Source: Anaeromyxobacter soli | Lineage (GTDB): Bacteria > Myxococcota > Myxococcia > Myxococcales > Anaeromyxobacteraceae | Assembly: GCF_022808855.1 (NCBI RefSeq) | Contig: NZ_JAKZLF010000014.1 | Coordinates: forward strand, 1 to 64,000 | Reading direction: 5' to 3' | DNA length: 64,000 bases | In this document: piece by piece, positions 16,339 through 29,477 of the stretch | How the letters are laid out: every line of letters starts with the position of its first letter | How positions within the stretch are numbered: the stretch's first letter is position 1 | Notes under the pieces: model-generated | Seen by the model: the letters and a program-made list of their open reading frames with translations, nothing else | Databases searched by the model: none | What the model was told of the DNA's origin: nothing | Program-made: the position numbers and the translations under genes

Positions 16339-16435
16339 AGCGGTCCCGCAGAGACGCCCGGACGCCTTTCGCCACGCAGCGCCGGGGCGACCTCGGAGAC
16401 GGCGCTCGCGAGGCCACCGCGGCGGGCGCGAGGGC

Positions 16436-18904
16436 TCACCCCGCTCGCCGGCGCGTCGGAGCGTGGAGGGACGGTCCGGCCCGCAGCGGACCCGCCCGCG
16501 AGTCGGACGCGCGCGGCTCGATTTCGAGCACCTCGGCGAGGGGACGGCGGAGCGCCCGCGCGGCGGGGGGTGGCGCGACGGCGAGGCGGAACAGCATCGG
16601 CTCTCCCCGGCCCGAGGCCTCCGGGAAGACCGAGGCGAGGCGACCCCGCAGCGCGCGCAGCGTGGCGACCTCCGGCGGCGCGAGGCCCTCGCCGTCGCCG
16701 AGCTCGAGCCGCGCGAAGAGGTACGTGAGCGGCGTCATGGGCTGGAACGCGAGCCCGAGGGCAGTCGCCTGGAGCCACACGCGCTGCATGGCGCGGCCGC
16801 CCGCGAAGTAGGCCTCGCGCGTGCGGCCCGCCACGGACACGAGCCCCGCGGCGCTCGCCGCCGCCATGGCCTTCGCCGCCGGCTTCTCGAGCGCGCGCCC
16901 CCCGCCGAGCCGGCCGACGAGCTCCATGGCGGGCCAGGAGGACATCACGCGGAGACCGGCCAGGTCCGCGCCGGAGAGCTCGAGCGTGGCGACGTCCAGC
17001 CCGTCGCCCCTGCGCACCTCGTCGGCGCTCCAGCGCAGCTCGCCCATCATCTCGCGGTGCATGGTGCGGGAGAGGAAGCGGAGCCGGTCCCCGCGCCCCA
17101 GCACCTCGCCGAGCTCGCTGAGCCGCTCCGAGTCCTCGACGAGGTGCAGCGCCGCGCCGGAGACGTCCGCCGCGGCGCGGAGGAGCAGGTCGCGCGCCTC
17201 CCGGGCGAGCGGCGCGCGCGGGCCGAGCTTCCGGTTCGTGGCGCGGTCCGGGATCGCCGCCGCGAGGGAGAGGACGCTCGCCGGGGCCGGCGCGCGCGAG
17301 GCCGCGAAGCGGAGGTCGCACACGAGCGCGGGCTCGCGCGGATCCGGGGCGAGGTCGACCGCCATGTCGAGCCCCATCGCCGCCGAGGCGAGCGCGATGT
17401 TCTCCACGGCGGCGCCGAAGGCGAGCCAGCTCGCGAGGTCGCGGTAATCGAGGAAGGACCGGGAGCGGGCGGCGTCGTGGAGGAGGCGGAGGCGCTTGCC
17501 GTCCCACGAGAACCGCCACGGCTGGCAGTTCCCGCCCGAGGGCGCGAGCGTGGCGAGCTCCACGAGCGCCCGGATTCGCTGCGTGTCGAGCGCCGCGCCC
17601 GCCCGGACCGCCGCCGGGGCGACGGCCGCGGCCGGGGGCGCCGCACGCGCCTCCTCGAGCGTCGCGGCCGGAGCGGGCACAGGCTCCGCCAGGAGGGGCT
17701 GCACCGCCCCCGCCCCGTCGCGCACGAGCTCGCCGAGGTCCACGTAGAACCGCCCCGACGACCTGAGCTCGCCGAGCGCGATCCGGCGGGCGGTGTCGGT
17801 GACGACCGCCGCGCCGAGCGACACGGCCGAGGCGAGCTGCGGCCAGGTCTTGAGCGTCGCCTTCACCTCGACGAGCGAGGCCGCGAGGCGCGGCGAGATG
17901 GACCGCTCGCCGAGGATGCGGAGCACGATCGGCACCTTCTCGGAGGTGTCGAGCCCGCGGAGCTCCTCGGCGTCGAGCGCGCCGACGAGGCCGTGGAGGA
18001 TGGGACGCTCGGGCTCGAGGTCGAAGCGCTCGACGTCGAGGAGGCCGCGGTCGCTCGTCTCCATGAGCACGGGGATGCGCAGCGCCCGCGCCGCCTCCCG
18101 GACCCGCACCTTCACGTAGAGGTCGTCGCACTCCTCCACGAGGAGGTCGAGCGGACGCCCGTCGGGCCGGAGGAACCGGTCCATGTTCGCATCGGTGATC
18201 CCGTCCAGGAACGGCCACACGCGCAGGTACGGGTCGAGCTCGGCGATGGCGCGCGCGGTGAGGACCGCCTTCGGGACCCCGAGCTCGTGGACGCCCGCGC
18301 GCAGCCGGTTCAAGTTCGAGAGGCTGAGCCGGTCGTGGTCCGCGAGGTAGAGCTCCCCGCCGACCTGCTCCATGGCGAGGGCGATGGCGCTCGCGCTCCC
18401 CACCGACAGGCCGACGACCCCGAGCCGGACCGCGCGGAGCCGCTCCTGCTCCTCGGAGGAGATCTTGTTCCGGTTCCGGCTCGAGCGTAGCTCCCGGAAC
18501 TCGGGCTCCGGGAGCACACGCACCACCCGCCTGGACCACGGGTAGAGGAACCAGGTGCCGTGGTACGCGAGCGGCAGCCCCTGGAGATGGGCGCCCATCC
18601 GCTCGGAGAGCGCCTCCGGCCCGAGCTCGAGCGCCGGCTCGCGCGTCTCGAGGAGCTCGACGAGCTGCTCGCGGAGGGTGTCGTGGACCGTGAGGCCTTC
18701 CTCCACCACGCGCGCGGCGAGCCGCAGGCGCGCCGCCGGATCGCCGGCGGGGAACGCCTCCGGCCGCCAGGAGTCCGCCTCGGCGCCCGGGCGCAGGACC
18801 TCGTCCGGCTCGGGCGGCGGGCCTCCGGCGGCGGGCGCGGGGGGCGGGCGTCCTCGCAGTGAATGCACGCGGTCCAGAAGCTCGAACTGATGGTGGCTGG
18901 GCAT
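16436..18904 (-). CDS. ThiF/E1-like adenylation domain fused to nitroreductase (Rv1355c-like)
   Basis: 822-residue bifunctional protein. Residues about 155-390 form a ThiF/MoeB/E1-type nucleotide-binding domain: LGVVGLSVGS, LADHDRLSLSNLNR, VEECDDLYVKV. Residues about 455-800 form an FMN nitroreductase-like domain with ATLAPSGGNCQPW and a final ALGLAFQPMTP segment. The architecture matches what I know as the Rv1355c family of mycobacteria and actinomycetes. I see no CXXC zinc site or obvious catalytic Cys of classical E1s. GGGAGG lies 8 bases before the ATG at 18904. It faces the regulator at 19000 divergently. Function is unknown; activation and redox modification of a carboxylate substrate is a guess. 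Confidence 0.8.
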   Translation of the reverse strand: MPSHHQFELLDRVHSLRGRPPPAPAAGGPPPEPDEVLRPGAEADSWRPEAFPAGDPAARLRLAARVVEEGLTVHDTLREQLVELLETREPALELGPEALSERMGAHLQGLPLAYHGTWFLYPWSRRVVRVLPEPEFRELRSSRNRNKISSEEQERLRAVRLGVVGLSVGSASAIALAMEQVGGELYLADHDRLSLSNLNRLRAGVHELGVPKAVLTARAIAELDPYLRVWPFLDGITDANMDRFLRPDGRPLDLLVEECDDLYVKVRVREAARALRIPVLMETSDRGLLDVERFDLEPERPILHGLVGALDAEELRGLDTSEKVPIVLRILGERSISPRLAASLVEVKATLKTWPQLASAVSLGAAVVTDTARRIALGELRSSGRFYVDLGELVRDGAGAVQPLLAEPVPAPAATLEEARAAPPAAAVAPAAVRAGAALDTQRIRALVELATLAPSGGNCQPWRFSWDGKRLRLLHDAARSRSFLDYRDLASWLAFGAAVENIALASAAMGLDMAVDLAPDPREPALVCDLRFAASRAPAPASVLSLAAAIPDRATNRKLGPRAPLAREARDLLLRAAADVSGAALHLVEDSERLSELGEVLGRGDRLRFLSRTMHREMMGELRWSADEVRRGDGLDVATLELSGADLAGLRVMSSWPAMELVGRLGGGRALEKPAAKAMAAASAAGLVSVAGRTREAYFAGGRAMQRVWLQATALGLAFQPMTPLTYLFARLELGDGEGLAPPEVATLRALRGRLASVFPEASGRGEPMLFRLAVAPPPAARALRRPLAEVLEIEPRASDSRAGPLRAGPSLHAPTRRRAG

Positions 18905-18999
18905 GCGCTGTGCCTCCCGTTGGGTGTGCGAGCCAGTGTACGGCCGCGGCAGACGATTGGACGCCGTCACCGGGGACGGGACGTGGTAGACGAGGCGCG

Positions 19000-19725
19000 A
19001 TGTGCGCGATCCGCAGGGATCTTCCCGACGCGTTCGACGACGTGCTCCTGCTCGTAGCCCCCGACGATGCGCACCGCCGCATGATCCGCGAGCGGCTCGC
19101 AGAGGTCAGGGGGAGCCCGCGACCGGGCCAGCCCGGCGCTCACCCGCGGTTCAAGCTCCTCACGGCCTCGAGCGGCGCCGAGTCGCTGAAGCGCGCTGCC
19201 GGGGCCACCATCGCCATGGTGAACCTCGAGCTGCCCAAGGGACCGGGGCTCGAGACGATCCGCGAGCTGCGCGAATCCCACGAGCGCCTCGCGATCCTGG
19301 CGTACGCGACGGCGGCGGGGGCCTCGGATGCCATGGCCGCCGTGATGGCGGGCGCGGACTTCTTCTTCGACTGCCACGACGAGTCGAGCGCCGCGCTCGG
19401 CCACGCCGTGGATCTCGCGGTCGAGCGCCGGCGGCTCACGCACACGATCGAGCAGAACGAGGCGGACGTGGAGGAGGCGCGTGGCAGGCTGGCGCAGCTC
19501 GCGGGGGAGCTCGTCGGCACGATGCCCGGGCTGTGGCCGCTCCGCTCGCGCGAGGACGTCCTGCCGTTCCGCGAGGCCGCGCGCCGCTATCTGCTCGCCG
19601 CGACCCGCTTCTTCGCCCGCGACCCCCGCGGCCTCGCGAAGGCGCTCGGGGTCTCCTACTTCTCGCTGCGCCGCCTCCTCGCGCGGTACGACGTCCCGTT
19701 CCCCGCCGCGCGGTCCCGCAAGTAA
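19000..19725 (+). CDS. Atypical response regulator: degenerate receiver plus Fis-like HTH
   Basis: 241-residue predicted DNA-binding regulator. Residues about 10-130 have the receiver-fold pattern (DDVLLLVAPDD, then MVNLELPKGPGLETI, then AAVMAGADFFF), but the phospho-acceptor Asp position is Asn75 and the conserved Lys near the end of the domain is missing. A short coiled coil (about 145-170) leads to a C-terminal helix-turn-helix (LAKALGVSYFSLRRLLARYDV). It is divergent from the ThiF-nitroreductase gene with 95 bases between starts, so it may control that gene. Because it lacks the Asp it probably does not take phosphate from the nearby orphan kinase. Confidence 0.75.
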   Translation: MCAIRRDLPDAFDDVLLLVAPDDAHRRMIRERLAEVRGSPRPGQPGAHPRFKLLTASSGAESLKRAAGATIAMVNLELPKGPGLETIRELRESHERLAILAYATAAGASDAMAAVMAGADFFFDCHDESSAALGHAVDLAVERRRLTHTIEQNEADVEEARGRLAQLAGELVGTMPGLWPLRSREDVLPFREAARRYLLAATRFFARDPRGLAKALGVSYFSLRRLLARYDVPFPAARSRK

Positions 19726-19785
19726 CGTACACGCACGGTCTGGTGAAGCCGCACGCTGAGTGGTAGTGTGGGATCGTGCCGTTCT

Positions 19786-19812
19786 CGCAACCCATGTTGC
19801 GGTTTCCGCAAC
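19786..19812. promoter_or_regulatory. Overlapping GTTGC/GCAAC inverted repeats upstream of the XRE gene
   Basis: CGCAAC-ccat-GTTGCG (19786-19801) overlaps GTTGCGG-ttt-CCGCAAC (19796-19812). Both are perfect inverted repeats and share the central GTTGCG half-site, giving three half-sites in 27 bases. They end 20 bases before the ATG at 19832, a position expected for autoregulation by the small XRE protein. Confidence 0.6.
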
Positions 19813-19831
19813 TTCAACTCAGGAGCTCCTC

Positions 19832-20038
19832 ATGCCGCGTCTCGCCGACAAGTTCGCCCTGAACCTCAAGAGCGAACGTCTCCGCCGCAAGCTCTCGCAG
19901 GAGGCCCTGGCCGGGAAGGCGCGGCTCTCGGTGTCCTACATCTCGATGCTCGAGCGCGGGCAGCGGACGCCGCCGCTCGAGACGCTCGAGAGCCTCGCCA
20001 AGGCCCTGGCCGTCTCGCCGACGTCGCTGCTCGAGTAG
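19832..20038 (+). CDS. Small XRE-family helix-turn-helix regulator
   Basis: 68-residue protein that is essentially one Cro/C1-type HTH domain: LKSERLRRKLSQEALAGKA, then VSYISMLERGQRTPPLETL, then LAKALAVSPTSLLE. AGGAG stands 7 bases before the ATG at 19832. The overlapping inverted repeats just upstream suggest that it represses its own gene. It converges with the STAS gene of the partner-switch cassette, with only 32 bases between the stops. Targets beyond itself are unknown. Confidence 0.88.
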   Translation: MPRLADKFALNLKSERLRRKLSQEALAGKARLSVSYISMLERGQRTPPLETLESLAKALAVSPTSLLE

Positions 20039-20062
20039 TCGACCGCTCGCGCGCGGGCGGCG

Positions 20063-20080
20063 CGACCGCTTCAGCGGTCG
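20063..20080. terminator. Short hairpin between convergent genes
   Basis: CGACCGC (20063-20069) and GCGGTCG (20074-20080) flank a TTCA loop. The hairpin overlaps the stop codon of the leftward STAS gene and lies 25 bases past the XRE stop. No T-run. Confidence 0.35.
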
Positions 20081-20412
20081 ACGCGCATCACGAACTCGGG
20101 GAAGAGGGCCGTGAGCGAGCTCGCGAGCTTCTTCTGCCACGGGACCGCGGCGCTCCCGAAGAGCGTGACCTGACAGCGCTTCTCGCGCGCGAGCAGCAGC
20201 ACGTCTGCGAGCGCGCGGATGCCGGAGCTGTTCAGGAACACCACCTGCGAGAGATCGAGGGAGATCGCGGGGAGCTTCGTGAGCGAGGCGACGATGGGCT
20301 CGAACGCCCGCGCGTAGGCCTCGGGCGACTCGAGGCGCATCACCCCGCGCAAGAGCCAGGTCCCGGGCGACTGCCCCGCGTCCACCGAGTAGTCCGGGCG
20401 TGGCGCCTTCAT
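20071..20412 (-). CDS. STAS-domain anti-sigma-factor-antagonist-like protein
   Basis: 113-residue STAS protein, last gene of the four-gene cassette. The strand SLDLSQVVFLNSSGIRALAD carries the Ser62-Ser63 pair at the place where SpoIIAA-type antagonists are phosphorylated. The ATG overlaps the stop of the HATPase gene (ATGA). In partner-switching systems such a protein is phosphorylated by the HATPase kinase and dephosphorylated by the SpoIIE-type phosphatase; both partners are encoded upstream in the same operon. Its output target is not in the window: no sigma factor or diguanylate cyclase gene is adjacent. Confidence 0.85.
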   Translation of the reverse strand: MKAPRPDYSVDAGQSPGTWLLRGVMRLESPEAYARAFEPIVASLTKLPAISLDLSQVVFLNSSGIRALADVLLLAREKRCQVTLFGSAAVPWQKKLASSLTALFPEFVMRVDR

Positions 20413-20948
20413 CGCTGCTCCACCTCCGCCGCGCTCATGGCCACCCGCAGGCAGACCGTGGCTTTCCCTCCGGCGTCGGCGGGCTCCACGGTGGCCCCGA
20501 CGGTCGCCCGGTAGTCTCGCGCGAGCAGCGCGAGGCCGAGGCCCCGCCGGTCCTGCAGCCGCTGCCGGAACACGGCGGTCGCGTCGTCGTGCGCGAGCAC
20601 CGGGAGCAGCTCCTTCAGGCTCGCGACGTGCTTGTCGCTCGCCTCGTTCCGGATCTCGAGCAGCACGACCTCGCCGTGATTGCGGATCGAGGCGCGCGCC
20701 GGCGTCCGCGCGTCGGCGCTGAACTTGGCGGCGTTCTCGACGAGCTCGTTCATGACGGTCGAGAGGACGCTGCGTGCCGTCTCGCGCCGCTCGAACCCGT
20801 ACACCATGTAGTCGGCCATGAAGTCGGCGATCATGCCGCATCGTCTCCACTCGGTCACCAGGTCTATCGGCACCACCTCCATCTCGATGGCGCTGAGCGG
20901 CTGGGCGGGGGCCTCGTGGAACGCGCCGAGGACGGTGAGGTTGCTCAT
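20409..20948 (-). CDS. HATPase-domain switch kinase (anti-sigma/SiaB-like)
   Basis: 179-residue GHKL ATPase without a sensor domain. The N-box is STVMNELVENAAKFS (Glu68, Asn72) and the G-box is DRRGLGLALLA. The first ~45 residues are a small extra domain. ATG 20948 has GGAGAC upstream, and the start and stop overlap both neighbours by four bases. By analogy with SpoIIAB/RsbW or with SiaB of the SiaABC pathway it would phosphorylate the STAS protein encoded immediately downstream. Which subfamily it belongs to cannot be fixed by eye. Confidence 0.8.
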   Translation of the reverse strand: MSNLTVLGAFHEAPAQPLSAIEMEVVPIDLVTEWRRCGMIADFMADYMVYGFERRETARSVLSTVMNELVENAAKFSADARTPARASIRNHGEVVLLEIRNEASDKHVASLKELLPVLAHDDATAVFRQRLQDRRGLGLALLARDYRATVGATVEPADAGGKATVCLRVAMSAAEVEQR

Positions 20949-21601
20949 CGCTCGTCTCCCAGCCACGGGCCGAGCGCGTGCTCGCCCGGAATGCGCAGGT
21001 CGCGGAAGGCGGCCGGTACGTCGAGGTGCGGGATGACGAGGTAGCTGTCCATCGGGTTCCGCTCCGACCGGTAGTGTTCGTGGACCTTGTAGTGGGGAAA
21101 CGGCTTCAGGTGTCGCGTGCGGATCCCGTGCCGCTCGACCAGGCGCTTCATCGATCGCACGACGCAGAAGGTGACGAGCGGCGGTCGCGGGGCGTCGAGC
21201 TCTACGAACGCCCGCGCGTGGGCGAACGCGATGAACAGCGGGCCGAGCCCCGAGTTGAGCAGCCGCGGGGCGATGACGAGCTTCGTCAGCTCGCGCCGCT
21301 CGGCGGGCTCGTACTCTCCGTCCACGCCCGCCTCGCGCAGCCGGGCGCGGACCTCGTCGTCGTCCACCAGCCCGAAGCGCTCGACGTAGGTGTTCCGCAC
21401 GTACAGCCCGGACACGGCCGCGAGCTCGTCGCGGACGAACCCCATCAGGAAGCGGTGCGGCCAGGGCTCGATCTTCCGGTCGAGGTCGTAGGTGTCGCTC
21501 GAGAACACCACGCCGTAGCGGCGGTGGTACACCTCGCCCACGAGCTGCCTGCAGCGCAGCACGTCGGCGGAGCGCGCGGCGATCTCGAGCCTCAGCTTCA
21601 C
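20945..21601 (-). CDS. GNAT-fold N-acyl amino acid / autoinducer synthase-like protein
   Basis: 218-residue protein with an acyltransferase-like layout: LRCRQLVGEVYHRRYGVVF near the N-terminus, a strand GFVRDELAAVSGLYVR, and ELTKLVIAPRLLNSG in the acyl-CoA/ACP-binding region, followed by FVVRSM-like and HLKPFPHYKVHEHY segments. This resembles FeeM/LuxI-type synthases and the exosortase-associated acyltransferases, which make N-acyl signals or lipids. The GTG start overlaps the stop of the SpoIIE gene (GTGA) and its own stop overlaps the kinase start. Placement inside a partner-switch operon is unusual. The enzymatic role is inferred. Confidence 0.6.
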   Translation of the reverse strand: MKLRLEIAARSADVLRCRQLVGEVYHRRYGVVFSSDTYDLDRKIEPWPHRFLMGFVRDELAAVSGLYVRNTYVERFGLVDDDEVRARLREAGVDGEYEPAERRELTKLVIAPRLLNSGLGPLFIAFAHARAFVELDAPRPPLVTFCVVRSMKRLVERHGIRTRHLKPFPHYKVHEHYRSERNPMDSYLVIPHLDVPAAFRDLRIPGEHALGPWLGDER

Positions 21602-22992
21602 GCCAGCGCTCCCTCGGGGCGCGCGCGCAGCATGAAGAACGCCACGTCGTCGGCGTAGCGCCGGCCCGTGAAGTCGTCGAGCTGCTCCACCAGCCGCCGG
21701 CGAATCTCGGACAGCGGCTCGGCGCCGCACGCGGACAAGAGCTCGCCCACGCGCTCGGCGCCGAACAGCCCGAGCTCGTGCCGGCCGAGGCGCGGCGCCT
21801 CGAACACCCCGTCGGTGGCGACGAACACCAGGTCTCCCGGCCTGAGCTCGAGGGTGGCGTCGCCGATGGTCTCGAGGGCCAGGTCCGGCGTGAAGCCGAC
21901 GCCCAGCGGGAAGTGCTCGAGGGCGAGCGTCTGCACCTCGCGCGAGCGGGCGCGGTAAACGAGCAGGTCCGCGTGACACCCGCTCACCACGAGCCGCCCG
22001 TCCCGGTCGTCGCGCCGCATCGCCACGATCGTCATGTAGCGGCGGTCCTCGAGCTGGGCGAGGTTCCGCCACAGCACCCGGTTCACGAGCTGGTTCAGCT
22101 CGCGGGGGGTGATCTCGGGGCGGGCCTCGATGATCGACGAGAGCGCGCTGTGGGCCATGAGCGCGAGCAGCCCCGCGTGGAAGCCGTGGCCGACGACGTC
22201 CGCCGCGAAGAACCACTCGCTGCTCCCCGTCTTGAAGTGCTGCAGGTAGTCCCCGCCGACCGAGTCGGCCTGCCGCATGTGGCAGGCGAACTCCAGGCGA
22301 TCGAGCCGGGCGTCCGTGGGCGCGAGCCGCGCCTGGAGGGTGCGCGCGATCTCGAGCTGGGCGGCGAGGCGCGCCTGGCGCTTCGTGACCATCTCGAGCA
22401 GCGCCGCGGGCGCGCTGATCGAGATCGCGAAGATCACCAGGAACGCCAGGGTGAACCCGACCGGCGCGAGCGCCTCCCGCTCGCGCAGGAAGACGAAGTC
22501 GAGGTTGTGGACCGAGAAGAGGATGCAGGAGAGCGCGAGCGCGCGCCCCTGCGCGTGGAGCGTGGACCAGCGGTCGCGGAAGACCTTGAAGCCGACCGCC
22601 ACGGTGGGCGCGGCGACCGCGAGCGCTGTGGGCGCCGAGACGAGGACGAACGATCCTCCCGCCGCCGCGACGAGGGCCGAGGCGGCGAGTCCCGCCGCCA
22701 GCAGCAGGACGAGCCTGCGCCACGGCACCGTCACCTCGGCCACCGCGGCGAGGAGCTGGGCGAACGCCGCGTTGTTGATGAAGACCGAGGCGAAGCCGAT
22801 GGTGACGATGAGGTGGTTGTGGGTGAGCGCGCTCTGGAGCAGCGCCGACAGGATGACCGTCGCCCACGCGACGAAGAGCATCCGGAACAGCGCGTCGCGC
22901 GTGCTCCGCCACAGCGCCGCCGCGAACACGGCGTTGAGGAGGGCCGCTCCCGCCAGGAGGACGAGGAGGTTCTGCACGACTTCGGAGCGCAT
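21598..22992 (-). CDS. Membrane SpoIIE-type PP2C phosphatase
   Basis: 464-residue first gene of the cassette. Residues 1-210 contain about seven hydrophobic helices (a 7TM/MASE-like sensor). A short linker coiled coil (KRQARLAAQLEIARTLQARL) joins a PP2C/SpoIIE domain with metal-binding motifs SVGGDYLQ, ADVVGHGFHAGLLALM, VATDGVFEA and YADDVAFFML. It would dephosphorylate the STAS protein in response to a membrane signal. No receiver or HAMP domain is present. Confidence 0.88.
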   Translation of the reverse strand: MRSEVVQNLLVLLAGAALLNAVFAAALWRSTRDALFRMLFVAWATVILSALLQSALTHNHLIVTIGFASVFINNAAFAQLLAAVAEVTVPWRRLVLLLAAGLAASALVAAAGGSFVLVSAPTALAVAAPTVAVGFKVFRDRWSTLHAQGRALALSCILFSVHNLDFVFLREREALAPVGFTLAFLVIFAISISAPAALLEMVTKRQARLAAQLEIARTLQARLAPTDARLDRLEFACHMRQADSVGGDYLQHFKTGSSEWFFAADVVGHGFHAGLLALMAHSALSSIIEARPEITPRELNQLVNRVLWRNLAQLEDRRYMTIVAMRRDDRDGRLVVSGCHADLLVYRARSREVQTLALEHFPLGVGFTPDLALETIGDATLELRPGDLVFVATDGVFEAPRLGRHELGLFGAERVGELLSACGAEPLSEIRRRLVEQLDDFTGRRYADDVAFFMLRARPEGALA

Positions 22993-23498
22993 TCCGGACT
23001 CGCGCAGTATGCCTCACCGACGGCGAACGCGGCAGGGGCTCACACCGGCTCTCGCCGGGCCCGGCGGCGAGGCAGGCGGGCCGACCGCCGCGCGGCGGTC
23101 GCCACGCAGGCTCGGCAGGTTCCGGTCGCACGCGGCAGGGAGGCGTCGACTCGTGGTCCGCGTGCGCAGCGCGCTCGCGGCAGCTCGCGCGATCCGCCGC
23201 GAGGGACGCCGCACCAACGGTCAAGGCCGGGAGGAGCCCACGCGTGCGACTCGCGCCGGGCAGAGCACGGCCTCACGCTCGTGCGTCTTCCACCAGGCTG
23301 CGCGCCGATCGCAGTCGCCCGAAAAGACTCACACTCGTCGTCAACGCCTGATCGCCTGTCTCGTGCGGTGAAGTTTCGCGCCCTGACGAACGAACCCTCG
23401 CGGGCTGATCCCGAATTCGGGTGAGGCGCTCTCCGGCAGAGTGGTCTGTCATCCGACCCCACTACAGCCATCCGAGCAGGCGCATGGAGGGGTACACG
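22993..23498. other. 506-bp intergenic region with three palindromes
   Basis: No convincing gene. Three perfect palindromes are present: CGCCGGGCCCGGCG (23053-23066), GACCGCCGCGCGGCGGTC (23083-23100) and CCCGAATTCGGG (23410-23421). The first two lie 60-110 bases upstream of the SpoIIE-type gene; the last lies 78 bases before the protease start. The region must hold the divergent promoters of both transcription units. Confidence 0.5.
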
Positions 23499-26400
23499 AT
23501 GAGGCTACGCGTCGCGCTGTGTCTTTCGCTGCTGGCGGTCGTCTCCTGCGGTCGGCGAGCCGAGCCCGAGCGCTCCCACGAGGTCACCCGTCCTGTGGAG
23601 GGGGCCGTCCAGGTGAACGGCTACGCGCTCGACGTGAAGGGGAAGCCGCCCGCGCTCCCGGCCGAGCTCACGGCCGAGGAGGAGCGGGACCTCCCCGCCG
23701 TGGCCGGGATGACGCTCGACCCCGCCGCCGAGGTCGTAGAGGTCTCCGCTCCGGCCGCGTCGCCGGCCTCGCGCGGCGATCGCCACGCGGCCGCCGCCGC
23801 GAAGCGGAGGAAGTGGATCGTCCAGCTGGACGGCCCCATCCACGAGGCCGACAAGGCGCGGCTCGCCGCGGCCGGGGCGCGGATCGGCGACTACCTCCCC
23901 GGATTCGCCTTCGTCGTCTCGATGGACGACGACACGCGCGCGGGCGTCGCGAAGCTCTCGAAGGTCCGCGGAGTCGCGCGCTTCCAGCCGGCGTACAAGC
24001 TCTCCCGCGCGCTCAAGGACGAGCATGGCGCGGTCCGCAAGGACCTCGCGAAGTCCCTGCGGCTCCGCGTGCGCGTCGACGCCGCCGACGGTCTGCCGGC
24101 CCTCCTGTCCGAGGTCCTGCGTCAGAAGGGAACCGTGGTGCGGGTCGCCAGGGACGTCGCGCAGGTCGAGGTCCCGCCCGGCCTCATCGCCCAGCTCGCG
24201 CGGCTCGAGGAGGTCCTCTGGATCGAGGAGGCGCTGCCGGTGCAGCTCCTCAACGACACGTCGCGCTGGGTGATCCAGTCGTACGTCCCCGGCTCGACGC
24301 CGGTCTTCGGCGCCGGGCTCGACGGCGCGGGGCAGATCGTCGGCGTCGGCGACACCGGGCTCGACATGGACATGTGCTTCTTCCGCGACCCGAGCGGCGC
24401 GGCCGTCGGCCCCGCGCACCGCAAGGTCGCCGGCTACGTGGCGTCGGCGGACGCCTGGGACGGGAACTTCGGCCACGGCACGCACGTCTCCGGCACCGTG
24501 GCGGGGGACCAGCGGCCGGTCACGGGGCTCTCTACCGCAGGCGGCATGGCCCCGAACGCCCGGCTGTTCATGACGGATCTCACGCCGGGTGAAGCCAACT
24601 ACCTCCTCGTGCCCGAGGACCTCGCCGATCTGTACGTCCGTCCCTACGACGCGGGCGCCCGCATCCACACGAACAGCTGGGGCTCCGGCGCGAACTGGTA
24701 CGACGGGCTAGCGTGGAGCACCGACCGGTTCATGTGGGAGCACAAGGACCTCCTCGTCCTCTTCGCCAACGGGAACGCCGGTCCGACCGACCTCCGCGTC
24801 GGCTCCCCCGCCACCGCGAAGAACATCGTCAGCGTCGGCGCGACCGAGAACGGCGACCAGGCCGAGAACGTCGCCTACTTCTCGAGCAACGGCCCGGCCT
24901 GGGACGGCCGGCTCAAGCCGACCCTCACCGCGCCCGGCGTGAACATCGTCTCGGCCGACTCGGACGGCCTCCCCGACACCAACAACTGCGGCACCATCGC
25001 CTATAGCGGCACGTCGATGGCGACGCCCACCACGGCGGGCGCCGCCGCGCTCGTGCGCCAGTACTACGTGGACGGCTACTGGCCGTCGGGGCTGGCGAGC
25101 CCCGCCGACGCCTTCCTTCCCTCCGCGGCCCTCGTCAAGGCGACCCTCGTCAACAGCGCCCAGTCGATGAGCGGCCTCTACACGCGCGGTCCCATCCCCA
25201 CCATCGCCCAGGGCTGGGGGCGCATCAACCTGTCGAACACCCTGCGCTTCGCGGGAGACTCGAGGTTCCTCGACGTGGCCGACGTCCAGCCGGGCGTCGC
25301 GACCGGCGACACCTTCACGAAGTCGCTCTTCGCGATCGGCGGCGCCCCGCTCAAGGTGACGCTCGTCTGGACGGACTACCCCGGCGCGCAGTACGCCGAC
25401 GTCGAGCTCGTGAACGACCTCGACCTCGAGGTCGTCGCCCCGGACGGCGCGACGTACGCGGGGAACGCCTTCTCGGGCGGGGTCTCGGTCACTGGCGGCA
25501 CGGCCGATCGGCTCAACGTGGAGGAGCAGTTCTATCTGCCCGATGCGGCCAGGGGCATCTACACGGTGCGGGTGAGGGGCTTCAACGTTCCGTCCGGCCC
25601 GCAGCCGTTCGCGCTGGTCGTCAGCGGGGCCGGCGGGATCTCCTCGCGGGGCTTCATCGGCCTGGACCGGGCGCGCTATGGCGCGACCACCCGCATCGAG
25701 GTGAAGGTCGGCGATCGCGACCTGAACGTCCGCCCGGACGTGTCCGACGAGGCGTACGTGACCGTCCGCAGCGACGCCGACCCCGCCGGCGAGTTCGTGT
25801 GGCTCACCGAGACCGGGCCGGACACCTCCATCTTCATGGGCACGCTGCCGACCGGCCCTGCCCCGGGGGTCGCCCATGACGGCATCCTCGCCGTGACCGA
25901 GGGCGGAACCCTCACCGCGACGTACGACGACGAGGACGACGGGACCGGCGCCCCCGCGACCACGAGCGCGACCGCCGTCGGCGATCTCACCCCGCCCGTC
26001 ATCACGGGCGTCTCGGTGGCGGCGCTCGACCAGGGCAGCGCGAAGATCGCCTGGACGACGAGCGAGCCGGCCTCCGCGACGGTGCTCTACGGGAAGACAC
26101 AGGCCCTCGGCGGCACGGCCGCGCTCCACTGGCTCGCGACCTCTCACGGGGTGGCCCTCGGCGCCCTCGAGGAGGGGGCGACCTACTTCTTCGCGGTGCA
26201 GTCCACCGACGAGGGCGGGAACGTCGCCGTCGACGACGGGGGCGGCACGCCGCGCACGTTCACGACTCCCGTCCTGCCGCCCGTGCTCGGCGTCTACTCC
26301 TCGCGGGGCGAGGTGACGCCGGAGGTGGAGACCGTCGTCTTCGGCACGGCCGTGGATCCCTCGGGCGTGGCGTCGCTCACCGTGAACGGCGCCGCCGTTC

Positions 26401-29400
26401 CGATCCGCGCCGCCGACGGCTACTTCGAGACCCTCGTCCCGCTCGCGCTCGGTGACAACTTCATCACCGTGGTGGCGACCGACGGGCGCGGACAATCGGC
26501 CACGACCACGCTCCTCGTCACCCGAAAGCCGCTCCCGGACCTCACCGTCACGTCCGTCACGACCCCTGACGTCGCGGGCCTCGGCATGGCGTTCCCCGTC
26601 ACCTCGCAGGTCTGCAACATCGGCGGCGAGCTCACCGCCGAGTACTTCAGCGTCGTCTGGTTCGTCTCCGAGGACGACGTGCTCGGGCCGGGCGACGTCG
26701 CGCTCGGCTCCGCGAAACGCGTTTACTCTCAGCAAGGGTGCACCAACCTCGCGTACACGATCTCCGCGAACTGGGAGGGCTTCCTCGGTCGCCCTTACCA
26801 CGTGGGCGTGGTCGCGTTCGCGAGCGACAGCGAGGCCAACGACGACAACAACTACAAGCTGGCGTCGAACGTGACCACGTTCGAGCCGCCCGACCTGACC
26901 GTGACGTCGATGTCCGCCCCCGAGCGCCTGGGGACCTCCACCCCGTTCTCGCTCACGACCAACGTCGCGAACCCGGGACGCGGAAAGGCCATCAACGTCA
27001 TCGTGAACGTGTACCTGTCGACGGACGACACGATCACCACCGCCGACCGCATGCTGGGATGGCAGCAGGTCTATTTCCTCGATGGCGGCGCCTCCGCGAG
27101 CGTGACCACCTCCCTGTCGCTCCCGAGCGATCTCCCCGCGGGCTCCTACCGCCTCGGCGCGATCGTCGACGTGGTCGGCTACGTCCAGGAGTCGAACGAG
27201 GACAACAACGTGTTCGTCGGTCCACGCGTCGTCGTGGACGGCCCGGATCTCGAGGTCACGTCCGTGAGCGGCCCCGCGACGGTGCTCACCGGCGGGACCT
27301 TCACCGTGGAGGACACGGTCACCGCGCGCCCGACCGGCGGCGGCACCGGGCCGTTCAAGGTCGGCCTGTACCTCTCCGACGATCCCGTCGTCACCACCGC
27401 CGACCTGAAGATCGGCGAGCGCACCGTCCCCTCCCTCGCCTCCGGCGCCTCCTCGTCGGGGGCCACGGTGATGACCCTCCCCGTCACCTGGGCCGGCGGC
27501 GCCTACTACGTCGGGGCCATCGCGGACGTGGCGAGCGAGGTCCTGGAGCTCGACGAGGCGAACAACGCGGCCGCGGGGGGCGCGCTCACCGTGATCGGCC
27601 CCGATCTCGTGGCCACCTCCGTCTCCGCGCCCGCGTCCGGCGTCGTCGGCGAGACCCTCACCGTTTTCGACACGATCGCGGCGAGCGCCGCGGGCGGCGC
27701 GACGCCGCCGTTCGACGTGGGCTTCTACCTCTCCACCGACCCCGTGATCACGCCGTCGGACCTGCTCCTCGGCTGGCGCTCCGCCGCCGCGCTCGCGCCG
27801 GGCGCCTCGAGCTCCGCCTCGACGCCGGTCACCCTGCCGCTCGGGCTCGCGCCCGGCACGTACTACGTGGGCGTCATCGCCGATGACTTCACGTACTGCT
27901 TCGAGGACTACCTGTACAACTCCTACTGCTACGGCGGCGACGTCGCGAAGGAGCCCGACGGGACGAACAACGCTCGCGCGAGCGGGCCCATCGTCGTCGG
28001 CGGTACGGACCTCGTCCTCACCGAGGTGAGCGCGCCGGCCACCGCCGGCACGGGCCTGCCGCTCGTCGTCCACGACGCCGTCGCGGCGGTCGGCGGGGGG
28101 ACGGGGGCGTTCAAGGTCGGCTACTACCTCTCGACGGACCCGACGATCACCACGGCGGATCGGTTCCTCGGCTACCGCGCGCTCGGCGGCCTCGCGCCGG
28201 GCGCCACGAGCAGCGCCGACACGAGCGTGACGGTGCCTGCGGGGCTCGCGCCGGGGACGTACTACGTGGGCGCGATCGCCGACTACGAGGGCCGCGTCGC
28301 GGAGGCGAGCGAGACGAACAACGCCCGCGCCGGCAACACCGTCGCCGTGGCCGGACCCGACCTCACCGTCTCCGCGCTGGCGGCGCCGCAGAGCGTCGGG
28401 ACGGCGACCCCGTTCTCGGTCACGGCGACCGTCGCGAACCTCGGCTCCGGAGCGAGCCCAGCGACGATGGTGTCGATCTACCTCTCCACCGATCCCGTCA
28501 TCACGACCTCCGACCTGCGGCTCGGCTACGGCACCTTCGCGATGCCGGCGCCGGGCGAGACGAGCTCGGCGACGCTCACGGTGAGCGTCCCGAGCTCCGT
28601 CGCCCAGGCGACCTACTACCTCGGCGCCATCCTCGACCCGTACGACCAGGTCAAGGAGGAGAGCGAGACGAACAACGCCTCCGCGGGCGCCGCCCTCACC
28701 CTCGTCCGTCCCGACCTCGCGCCGATCGCGGTCTCCGGGCCACCGGCCGCTCTCACCGGCGAGACCATCACCGTCAGCTACACGCTCTCGGCGCTCCCGA
28801 CGGGCGCGGGCGCGACGAGCCCGCCGCTCGGGCTCTACCTGTCGAGTGACCTGTTCATCACGCCGCAGGACCTCTCGATCGGGACCGCGTACCCCGGCGA
28901 CCTCGCGTCAGGCGCGTCGCGCTCGGGCACGGTCACGCTGACGATCCCGGCGGGCATCGCGGGCGGCACCTATCAGCTCGGCGCGTTCGCCGATCCGTAC
29001 GGCACCACGCCCGAGAGCGACGAGGGGAACAACGGCCTCGCCGGCGGCACCATCGCGATCACCGGGCCCGACCTCGTGGCGACCGCGGTGTCCGGCCCGG
29101 CCTCCGCGGTGCGGGGGACCAGCATCCCGGTCGCGAACACGGTGGCCGCGAGCGCCGCGGGCGGCGCCGCCCCCGCGTTCCTCGTTGGCGTGTACCTCTC
29201 CTCCGATGCCAGCATCACCGCGTCGGATCTGCTGCTCGGGTACCGCAGCGTCGCTGGGCTCCAGCCGGGCGCGAGCTCGTCCGACACCACCCTCGTGGCG
29301 ATCCCGCCGACGCTGGCGCCGGGGACGTACTACCTCGGCGTCCTCGCGGACGACTTCACCGTCTGCGAGTTCAACTGGTCCACTGATCAGTACGAGTGCC

Positions 29401-29477
29401 AGGGCGACCAGGCGAAGGAGCCCGACGGGGCGAACAACGCCCTCGCGGGCGGGGCGATCGTGATCAGCGCGCCCTAG
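23499..29477 (+). CDS. Giant secreted subtilisin-like protease (lipoprotein) with eight CARDB repeats
   Basis: 1992-residue S8 peptidase. The signal peptide ends in a lipobox-like VVSC, so it may be lipidated. A propeptide-like region (to about 260) precedes the catalytic domain with Asp285 (GVGDTGLDMD), His326 (HGTHVSG) and Ser506 (GTSMATP). After it come beta-sandwich regions (about 590-760), a fibronectin-type segment near 850-940, and eight CARDB repeats from residue 1013 to the end, each opening with PDL- or TDL-. Repeats 4 and 8 carry extra Cys-containing loops. GGAGGGG precedes the ATG. Probably a predatory or degradative exoenzyme attached to the cell surface. Confidence 0.92.
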   Translation: MRLRVALCLSLLAVVSCGRRAEPERSHEVTRPVEGAVQVNGYALDVKGKPPALPAELTAEEERDLPAVAGMTLDPAAEVVEVSAPAASPASRGDRHAAAAAKRRKWIVQLDGPIHEADKARLAAAGARIGDYLPGFAFVVSMDDDTRAGVAKLSKVRGVARFQPAYKLSRALKDEHGAVRKDLAKSLRLRVRVDAADGLPALLSEVLRQKGTVVRVARDVAQVEVPPGLIAQLARLEEVLWIEEALPVQLLNDTSRWVIQSYVPGSTPVFGAGLDGAGQIVGVGDTGLDMDMCFFRDPSGAAVGPAHRKVAGYVASADAWDGNFGHGTHVSGTVAGDQRPVTGLSTAGGMAPNARLFMTDLTPGEANYLLVPEDLADLYVRPYDAGARIHTNSWGSGANWYDGLAWSTDRFMWEHKDLLVLFANGNAGPTDLRVGSPATAKNIVSVGATENGDQAENVAYFSSNGPAWDGRLKPTLTAPGVNIVSADSDGLPDTNNCGTIAYSGTSMATPTTAGAAALVRQYYVDGYWPSGLASPADAFLPSAALVKATLVNSAQSMSGLYTRGPIPTIAQGWGRINLSNTLRFAGDSRFLDVADVQPGVATGDTFTKSLFAIGGAPLKVTLVWTDYPGAQYADVELVNDLDLEVVAPDGATYAGNAFSGGVSVTGGTADRLNVEEQFYLPDAARGIYTVRVRGFNVPSGPQPFALVVSGAGGISSRGFIGLDRARYGATTRIEVKVGDRDLNVRPDVSDEAYVTVRSDADPAGEFVWLTETGPDTSIFMGTLPTGPAPGVAHDGILAVTEGGTLTATYDDEDDGTGAPATTSATAVGDLTPPVITGVSVAALDQGSAKIAWTTSEPASATVLYGKTQALGGTAALHWLATSHGVALGALEEGATYFFAVQSTDEGGNVAVDDGGGTPRTFTTPVLPPVLGVYSSRGEVTPEVETVVFGTAVDPSGVASLTVNGAAVPIRAADGYFETLVPLALGDNFITVVATDGRGQSATTTLLVTRKPLPDLTVTSVTTPDVAGLGMAFPVTSQVCNIGGELTAEYFSVVWFVSEDDVLGPGDVALGSAKRVYSQQGCTNLAYTISANWEGFLGRPYHVGVVAFASDSEANDDNNYKLASNVTTFEPPDLTVTSMSAPERLGTSTPFSLTTNVANPGRGKAINVIVNVYLSTDDTITTADRMLGWQQVYFLDGGASASVTTSLSLPSDLPAGSYRLGAIVDVVGYVQESNEDNNVFVGPRVVVDGPDLEVTSVSGPATVLTGGTFTVEDTVTARPTGGGTGPFKVGLYLSDDPVVTTADLKIGERTVPSLASGASSSGATVMTLPVTWAGGAYYVGAIADVASEVLELDEANNAAAGGALTVIGPDLVATSVSAPASGVVGETLTVFDTIAASAAGGATPPFDVGFYLSTDPVITPSDLLLGWRSAAALAPGASSSASTPVTLPLGLAPGTYYVGVIADDFTYCFEDYLYNSYCYGGDVAKEPDGTNNARASGPIVVGGTDLVLTEVSAPATAGTGLPLVVHDAVAAVGGGTGAFKVGYYLSTDPTITTADRFLGYRALGGLAPGATSSADTSVTVPAGLAPGTYYVGAIADYEGRVAEASETNNARAGNTVAVAGPDLTVSALAAPQSVGTATPFSVTATVANLGSGASPATMVSIYLSTDPVITTSDLRLGYGTFAMPAPGETSSATLTVSVPSSVAQATYYLGAILDPYDQVKEESETNNASAGAALTLVRPDLAPIAVSGPPAALTGETITVSYTLSALPTGAGATSPPLGLYLSSDLFITPQDLSIGTAYPGDLASGASRSGTVTLTIPAGIAGGTYQLGAFADPYGTTPESDEGNNGLAGGTIAITGPDLVATAVSGPASAVRGTSIPVANTVAASAAGGAAPAFLVGVYLSSDASITASDLLLGYRSVAGLQPGASSSDTTLVAIPPTLAPGTYYLGVLADDFTVCEFNWSTDQYECQGDQAKEPDGANNALAGGAIVISAP
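26535..29477 (+). repeat. Eight tandem CARDB (CARDB-like beta-sandwich) repeats within the protease
   Basis: About 360-390 bases per unit, encoding ~122-residue domains. Each begins PDL or TDL followed by VTSVSAP-like residues, contains YLSTDP.IT.AD.. L and G.YY.GAI.D, and ends E.NEANNA-like. Repeats 4 and 8 have a longer hairpin ending in KEPDGTNN or KEPDGANN. Divergence among the units shows they are old rather than a recent expansion. Confidence 0.85.

Follow-up and report, generated by a model that had tools for sequence, protein, structure and literature searches.

A partner-switch cassette linked to predicted N-acyl-amino-acid/oxazolone synthesis genes in Anaeromyxobacter soli

Oxazolones are recently discovered compounds that combine a fatty acid and an amino acid. 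Oxazolone lipids are found in proteobacteria and mycobacteria, and their physiological role has been called a major unresolved question (PMC12856293). Among them, the N-acyl tryptazolones are made by TrzA, which acylates tryptophan, and TrzS (Rv1355c), which cyclises N-acyl-tryptophan using ATP and then desaturates it using O2 to yield the oxazolone; oxazolone genes lie near cyclic di-GMP (c-di-GMP) genes in mycobacteria (PMC12856293). In the SiaABCD partner switch, SiaC directly activates SiaD except when it is phosphorylated by SiaB (PMC8457831). Here we describe a 64,000-nucleotide stretch of the Anaeromyxobacter soli genome (contig NZ_JAKZLF010000014.1, positions 1 to 64,000; hereafter the window) in which a SpoIIE phosphatase, a slr1658-type HATPase and a slr1659-type STAS protein form a partner switch that is probably dedicated to N-acyl-amino-acid/oxazolone synthesis, with a predicted control step and product.

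Analysis of the cassette revealed four minus-strand genes, encoding the SpoIIE phosphatase, a GNAT-like protein, the HATPase and the STAS protein in that order (Table 1) and joined by three 4-base stop/start overlaps (GTGA, ATGA and ATGA), exactly as a preliminary description of this DNA had stated. Each gene has a third-position GC content of 0.94-0.97, typical of real genes here, and SpoIIE, HATPase and STAS proteins encoded together are the gene content of a partner-switching module. The phosphatase has a polytopic membrane N-terminus, with hydrophobic segments within residues 9-192 in a hydropathy scan, and carries the motifs GGDY, DVVGHG and DDVAF. The HATPase exceeds the slr1658_superfam cut-off of 100 bits (Table 1), and the STAS protein falls below that of slr1659_superfam (NF047705; 83 versus 100 bits), which is still its top-scoring family (E 1.7e-23), and passes the Pfam STAS cut-off (23.4 versus 22.6 bits). 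The N61-S62-S63 motif of the STAS protein is invariant in an alignment of nine homologues, with S62 (codon 20227-20229) as the predicted phospho-acceptor, and the HATPase N-box residues E68, E71, N72 and K75 are invariant across eight aligned sequences, most of which also keep the GLG box. Phosphorylation of the STAS protein by the HATPase would fit this conserved Asn-Ser-Ser and N-box.

Table 1. Positions in the window of the cassette genes, the associated genes and the conserved unit.
Feature	Position	Strand	Details
SpoIIE/PP2C phosphatase	21598..22992	minus	464 amino acids; PF07228 109.7 bits
GNAT-like protein, predicted N-acyl amino acid synthase	20945..21601	minus	218 amino acids, GTG start; acyl-homoserine lactone synthase/FeeM fold in model
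HATPase, predicted Ser/Thr protein kinase, slr1658 superfamily	20409..20948	minus	179 amino acids; NF047703 118 bits
STAS-domain switch protein, slr1659-like	20071..20412	minus	113 amino acids; family profiles and alignment
ThiF-type adenylating cyclase fused to nitroreductase-family flavin oxidase (TrzS/OxzB/Rv1355c type)	16436..18904	minus	NF005901, PF00899, PF00881
Small helix-turn-helix (XRE/Cro-type) regulator	19832..20038	plus	PF01381 59 bits; between the two transcription units
Receiver-like regulator, divergent from the ThiF-flavin oxidase gene	19000..19725	plus	receiver-domain score under the Pfam cut-off
Conserved 6.6-kb unit	16419..23036		unbroken nucleotide homology to G003 (88%) and G007 (85%), stopping abruptly at both ends

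These profile scores indicate a switch of the slr1658/slr1659 type. Comparison with curated families led us to reject the Sia and Rsb labels previously attached to it: the phosphatase scored 45 bits against a SiaA cut-off of 700, the SiaB profile gave no match for the window HATPase, leaving the SiaB subfamily cut-off unmet, and the score for ant_ant_sig (RsbUVW-type) was 20.1 against 53.45 bits. The weak SiaA likeness of the phosphatase, together with weak SiaB matches (22 bits) of the HATPases from rhizobia and from a more distant relative of the cassette (G163, below), could suggest a plain SiaABCD- or RsbUVW-type switch accompanied by an unrelated passenger enzyme. We consider this highly improbable, as every curated Sia/Rsb cut-off fails, neither a SiaD nor a sigma factor gene is adjacent, and the enzyme and switch stay linked across a phylum-level distance. 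The region from 12.5 to 25.4 kb of the window encodes NorB, a histidine kinase, a ThiF-flavin oxidase, the receiver-like protein, the helix-turn-helix protein, the cassette and a subtilase; no sigma factor or diguanylate cyclase was found among these genes, which upholds the earlier statement that neither lies alongside. The subtilase-family protease (PF00082; window 23505-29477) is large, has a repetitive C-terminal part and is divergent from the cassette. A PADLOC search for anti-phage defence returned zero matches.

The four genes had been described as a translational unit, but the conserved unit is larger and includes the previously missed ThiF-flavin oxidase gene, located 1.2 kb downstream of the cassette on the same strand and 2 kb from the GNAT gene. 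Read from an earlier GTG start at 18970, its product is 844 amino acids long and far exceeds the cut-off of the NCBIfam equivalog 'Rv1355c family' (NF005901; 883 versus 476 bits over residues 62-817). In an alignment to MoeB and Acg, D282 (844-residue numbering) aligns with MoeB D130 and is invariant in seven ThiF proteins; its equivalence to TrzS D217 was mapped only indirectly. Because a putative acyltransferase and a cyclase-oxidase are both present, the locus represents a complete predicted oxazolone pathway. The N-acyl class of product proposed in the preliminary description is likely to stand, but the inclusion of a Rv1355c/TrzS-type enzyme in the conserved unit makes an oxazolone or dehydro N-acyl amino acid a likelier output than the AHL-like (acyl-homoserine lactone-like) autoinducer suggested there.

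The GNAT-like protein is predicted to be an N-acyl amino acid synthase. An AlphaFold2 model built from five relatives (predicted local distance difference test score, pLDDT, 78.5) has the acyltransferase fold that had been anticipated: its first 13 PDB matches were AHL synthases (EsaI, TofI, LasI, BjaI, RpaI and MesI) and FeeM, with E values of 5e-6 to 2e-4, template-modelling scores of about 0.5 and about 10-14% identity to FeeM and LuxI-type synthases in structural alignment. The motif E104-x-T106-K107-L-x-V/I, which we liken to the ExSRFxV-type motif seen in AHL synthases, is kept in all five relatives. TyzA of M. tuberculosis has been reported to resemble the same structures (PMC10404671). 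The likeness is one of fold only: Pfam and NCBIfam profile searches gave no sequence-family match, including none to the autoinducer-synthase family and none at E 1 to the FeeM family PF21926, and searches of PDB sequences and of plasmids returned nothing. An AHL synthase proper was rejected, the fold agreeing but not the sequence family, and the linked ThiF-flavin oxidase points to amino-acid acylation. GNAT proteins often modify other proteins, and the position of this gene between those for the phosphatase and the kinase raises the alternative that its product acylates or acetylates the STAS protein or the HATPase on the input side instead of making a small molecule. That alternative is very unlikely, given that the model matches AHL synthases and FeeM before protein acetyltransferases and that the conserved unit carries a ThiF-flavin oxidase, an enzyme for which those relatives that have been characterised act on N-acyl amino acids (PMC12856293).

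The partner-switch cassette is conserved. Its order and 4-base overlaps are kept in three further Anaeromyxobacter genomes (G003, G007 and G008), down to about 60% identity, making four with the window. The preliminary description would have been refuted by an order confined to this genome or by a second protein lacking an acyltransferase fold, and neither outcome was observed. The 6.6-kb block shared with G003 and G007 contains the cassette, the small helix-turn-helix gene, the receiver-like gene and the ThiF-flavin oxidase gene; the helix-turn-helix regulator is kept at all four Anaeromyxobacter loci (tblastn; L006, L007 and L008) and the receiver-like regulator at three, being absent in G008. 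A flank search for an insertion site found a histidine kinase gene common to G003 and G007 at varying distance, and the block is therefore not necessarily a mobile island. A genome-wide scan with one GNAT sequence recovered only two Anaeromyxobacter records, apparently G003 and G008.

A survey of up to 195 genomes of the phylum for linkage of GNAT, ThiF and switch genes yielded strong GNAT matches only in the four Anaeromyxobacter genomes and in G163, a genome of the same phylum outside the class. There the order is SpoIIE-ThiF-GNAT-HATPase-STAS, with 4-base overlaps at all four junctions (ATGA, ATGA, TTGA and ATGA), so that the gene order of the cassette recurs with an additional ThiF gene within it. 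The G163 ThiF protein lacks the oxidase half, and an oxidase-like protein is encoded elsewhere in that genome. A third lineage, G150 (same class, another family), has STAS-HATPase-STAS-SpoIIE-PilZ protein-ThiF-flavin oxidase genes on one strand, an order different from that of the window, and its HATPase and two STAS proteins are distant family members (45.9, 24.5 and 23.1 bits against a cut-off of 100). The PilZ protein suggests a c-di-GMP input to the same pathway; its model (pLDDT 40) was unusable for assigning it, as the candidate partner enzyme, to the acyltransferases. Overall, three of the five lineages have a full or half copy of the ThiF family no more than about 5 kb away from the switch, a proximity for which a rough estimate assuming one HATPase copy per genome gives a chance probability of 8e-8. 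In G194 a ThiF-flavin oxidase gene occurs on a short contig with no switch nearby.

Several neighbouring genes at these and other loci were also recorded. An adenylate/guanylate cyclase gene lies immediately upstream of the G163 cassette (L037:12540-13733), and the G150 cluster (L058:3147-13351) also holds a flavin oxidoreductase and a ketosynthase-like protein on the same strand. In G194 (L060:119-5928), the ThiF-flavin oxidase, an RND/MMPL-type exporter identified by eye and a FeeM-family acyltransferase (PF21926, 117 bits) are encoded in a row, and the exporter suggests that the product is exported. NCBIfam NF011425 (PRK14852; 989 positions) looks like a FeeM-ThiF-oxidase triple fusion, because its segments 24-284, 306-451 and 596-796 match the FeeM protein of L060, the ThiF protein of L037 and the window oxidase (16439-18970), respectively. 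A stand-alone distant GNAT relative (about 25% identity) in another genus of the family adjoins glutamate synthase genes (L009:7335-7919). A ThiF-adjacent GNAT in Streptomyces was set aside as an ordinary GNAT by eye, outside the family of the window protein.

The recurrence of these arrangements bears on the principal alternative, that the switch has an unlinked output (a sigma factor, a transcription factor or a diguanylate cyclase) and that the acyl/oxazolone enzymes are merely co-transcribed under transcriptional control. The HATPase could serve as an anti-sigma-type binding protein, the targets of most characterised STAS-only proteins are transcriptional or unknown (PMC8256260), the conserved block contains helix-turn-helix and receiver-like genes, and other slr1658-like pairs in the phylum have none of these enzymes within 1.5 kb. 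However, the switch adjoins the enzymes in two separate gene arrangements and is interleaved with them by 4-base overlaps in G163, no sigma factor was found in the examined neighbourhood, and rhizobia have an enzyme with a fused STAS domain. We therefore regard an unlinked output as unlikely, though appreciably more probable than either alternative raised above.

The rhizobial case comes from megaplasmids with SpoIIE-slr1658-slr1659 operons in which the upstream genes code for two proteins, a degenerate HATPase-like one and a methyltransferase with an N-terminal slr1659-like STAS domain (34.8 bits, with NNT in place of NSS). This fusion, in an operon for the same kind of switch, supports the view that slr1658/slr1659-type switches may act on enzymes. 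The operon was seen at L064:2850-7837 and also in L065 and L068; upstream of it, L064 and L068 have an EAL or GGDEF gene. On two Rhodococcus plasmids (L038:2876-7124 and L041:2808-6956), a GGDEF gene lies next to the Rv1355c-family genes, and the divergent hypothetical protein also encoded beside them is a possible acyltransferase.

We propose that the membrane SpoIIE phosphatase would receive a signal and dephosphorylate the STAS protein at Ser62, which the HATPase would rephosphorylate. The unphosphorylated STAS protein, released from the HATPase, would then act on the enzymes of biosynthesis (the N-acyltransferase most likely, the ThiF cyclase possibly) and so start production of an N-acyl amino acid, probably an aromatic one, that the ThiF-flavin oxidase would cyclise with ATP and desaturate with O2 to an acyl-oxazolone. 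This sequence from signal to enzyme is the most economical reading, although its last step is one that we infer. More tentative, and somewhat less probable than a dedicated switch as such, is the specific proposal that the unphosphorylated STAS protein activates the N-acyltransferase or the ThiF cyclase by binding to it, and so directly gates the production of an acyl-oxazolone with a role as a signal or stress compound.

Several points weigh against a switch dedicated to this pathway. The DxGxG box is absent from the HATPase in all eight aligned sequences, so kinase activity is not assured. In Anaeromyxobacter the ThiF-flavin oxidase gene is a transcription unit of its own, divided from the cassette by genes on the opposite strand. 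Profile comparison of the GNAT-like protein with FeeM and with the putative TrzA of the Rhodococcus plasmids gave no signal at the sensitivity of the comparison, only the fold being shared. A further genome, G061, has a ThiF-flavin oxidase gene and no slr1658-type HATPase match anywhere in the genome, which means that the oxazolone pathway does not in general need the switch; being linked to the pathway in Anaeromyxobacter, G163 and G150 and not near it in G061 or G194, the switch is best described as a recurrent but optional companion of the ThiF-flavin oxidase. Finally, the proposal is built on genes and a predicted fold, from which the interaction and its direct binding, the phosphorylation chemistry, the polarity of the switch and the identity of the product are predicted.

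The question of product is separate from that of control, and the alternatives considered here are not mutually exclusive. If the enzymes act as proposed, the end product could be an open-chain N-acyl (dehydro) amino acid of the thalassotalic or stieleriacine type instead of an oxazolone, because producers of N-acyl dehydrotyrosine carry the same set of GNAT, ThiF and nitroreductase enzymes and no oxazolone was detected there (PMC12479983); the G163 cassette, with ThiF only and an oxidase-like gene elsewhere, is also consistent with such a product. On the other hand, the Anaeromyxobacter ThiF-flavin oxidase is a full-length fusion within the TrzS equivalog family, and oxazolones are easily missed because extraction with acid or alcohol makes them hydrolyse or react (PMC12856293). 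We consider an open-chain product unlikely, about as much so as an unlinked output.

The joining of switch genes to predicted oxazolone genes suggests that the oxazolone is made on command, and the cassette offers a direct handle on its role, in that the switch could be altered and the compound measured. These results also suggest that the targets of partner switches may extend past sigma factors and diguanylate cyclases to a metabolic enzyme whose product is a lipid-like small molecule. If direct gating is true, slr1658/slr1659 switches would be a general means of controlling small-molecule enzymes, their targets being methyltransferases in rhizobia and, in myxobacteria, acyl/oxazolone enzymes.

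The locus can be compared with several described systems. Like the window, TrzAS and TyzACB of Mycobacterium and OxzAB of Pseudoalteromonas have, besides an N-acyltransferase of the AHL-synthase/FeeM fold, both a ThiF cyclase and a flavin oxidase of the nitroreductase family; in contrast, their acyltransferases are from a different sequence group, and in mycobacteria their neighbours are c-di-GMP genes (PMC12856293). The accounts of such pathways that we consulted contain no mention of the switch genes (SpoIIE, HATPase and STAS) under the terms searched, and a non-exhaustive literature search found no report in which partner switching is connected with the synthesis of oxazolones or N-acyl amino acids. 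FeeM and the LuxI-type AHL synthases have a predicted fold in common with the window GNAT, but a sequence-family match is absent. In the SiaABCD system of Pseudomonas aeruginosa, too, the phosphorylation of a small switch protein is controlled by a SpoIIE-type phosphatase and an HATPase kinase, and the ability of that protein to act on an enzyme directly provides a precedent for enzyme output; the output of SiaABCD, however, is a diguanylate cyclase, whereas the window proteins miss the SiaA and SiaB cut-offs and SiaD is absent. Closest to the switch itself are the slr1658/slr1659 regulators of Synechocystis, as judged from the HATPase and STAS matches, although slr1658 is known for recovery from iron starvation, with mutants that overexpress pgr5 (PMC7555055), and no acyltransferase or ThiF link has been reported for it. 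Thus, the switch and the pathway are each of a known kind, and it is their combination that appears to be new.

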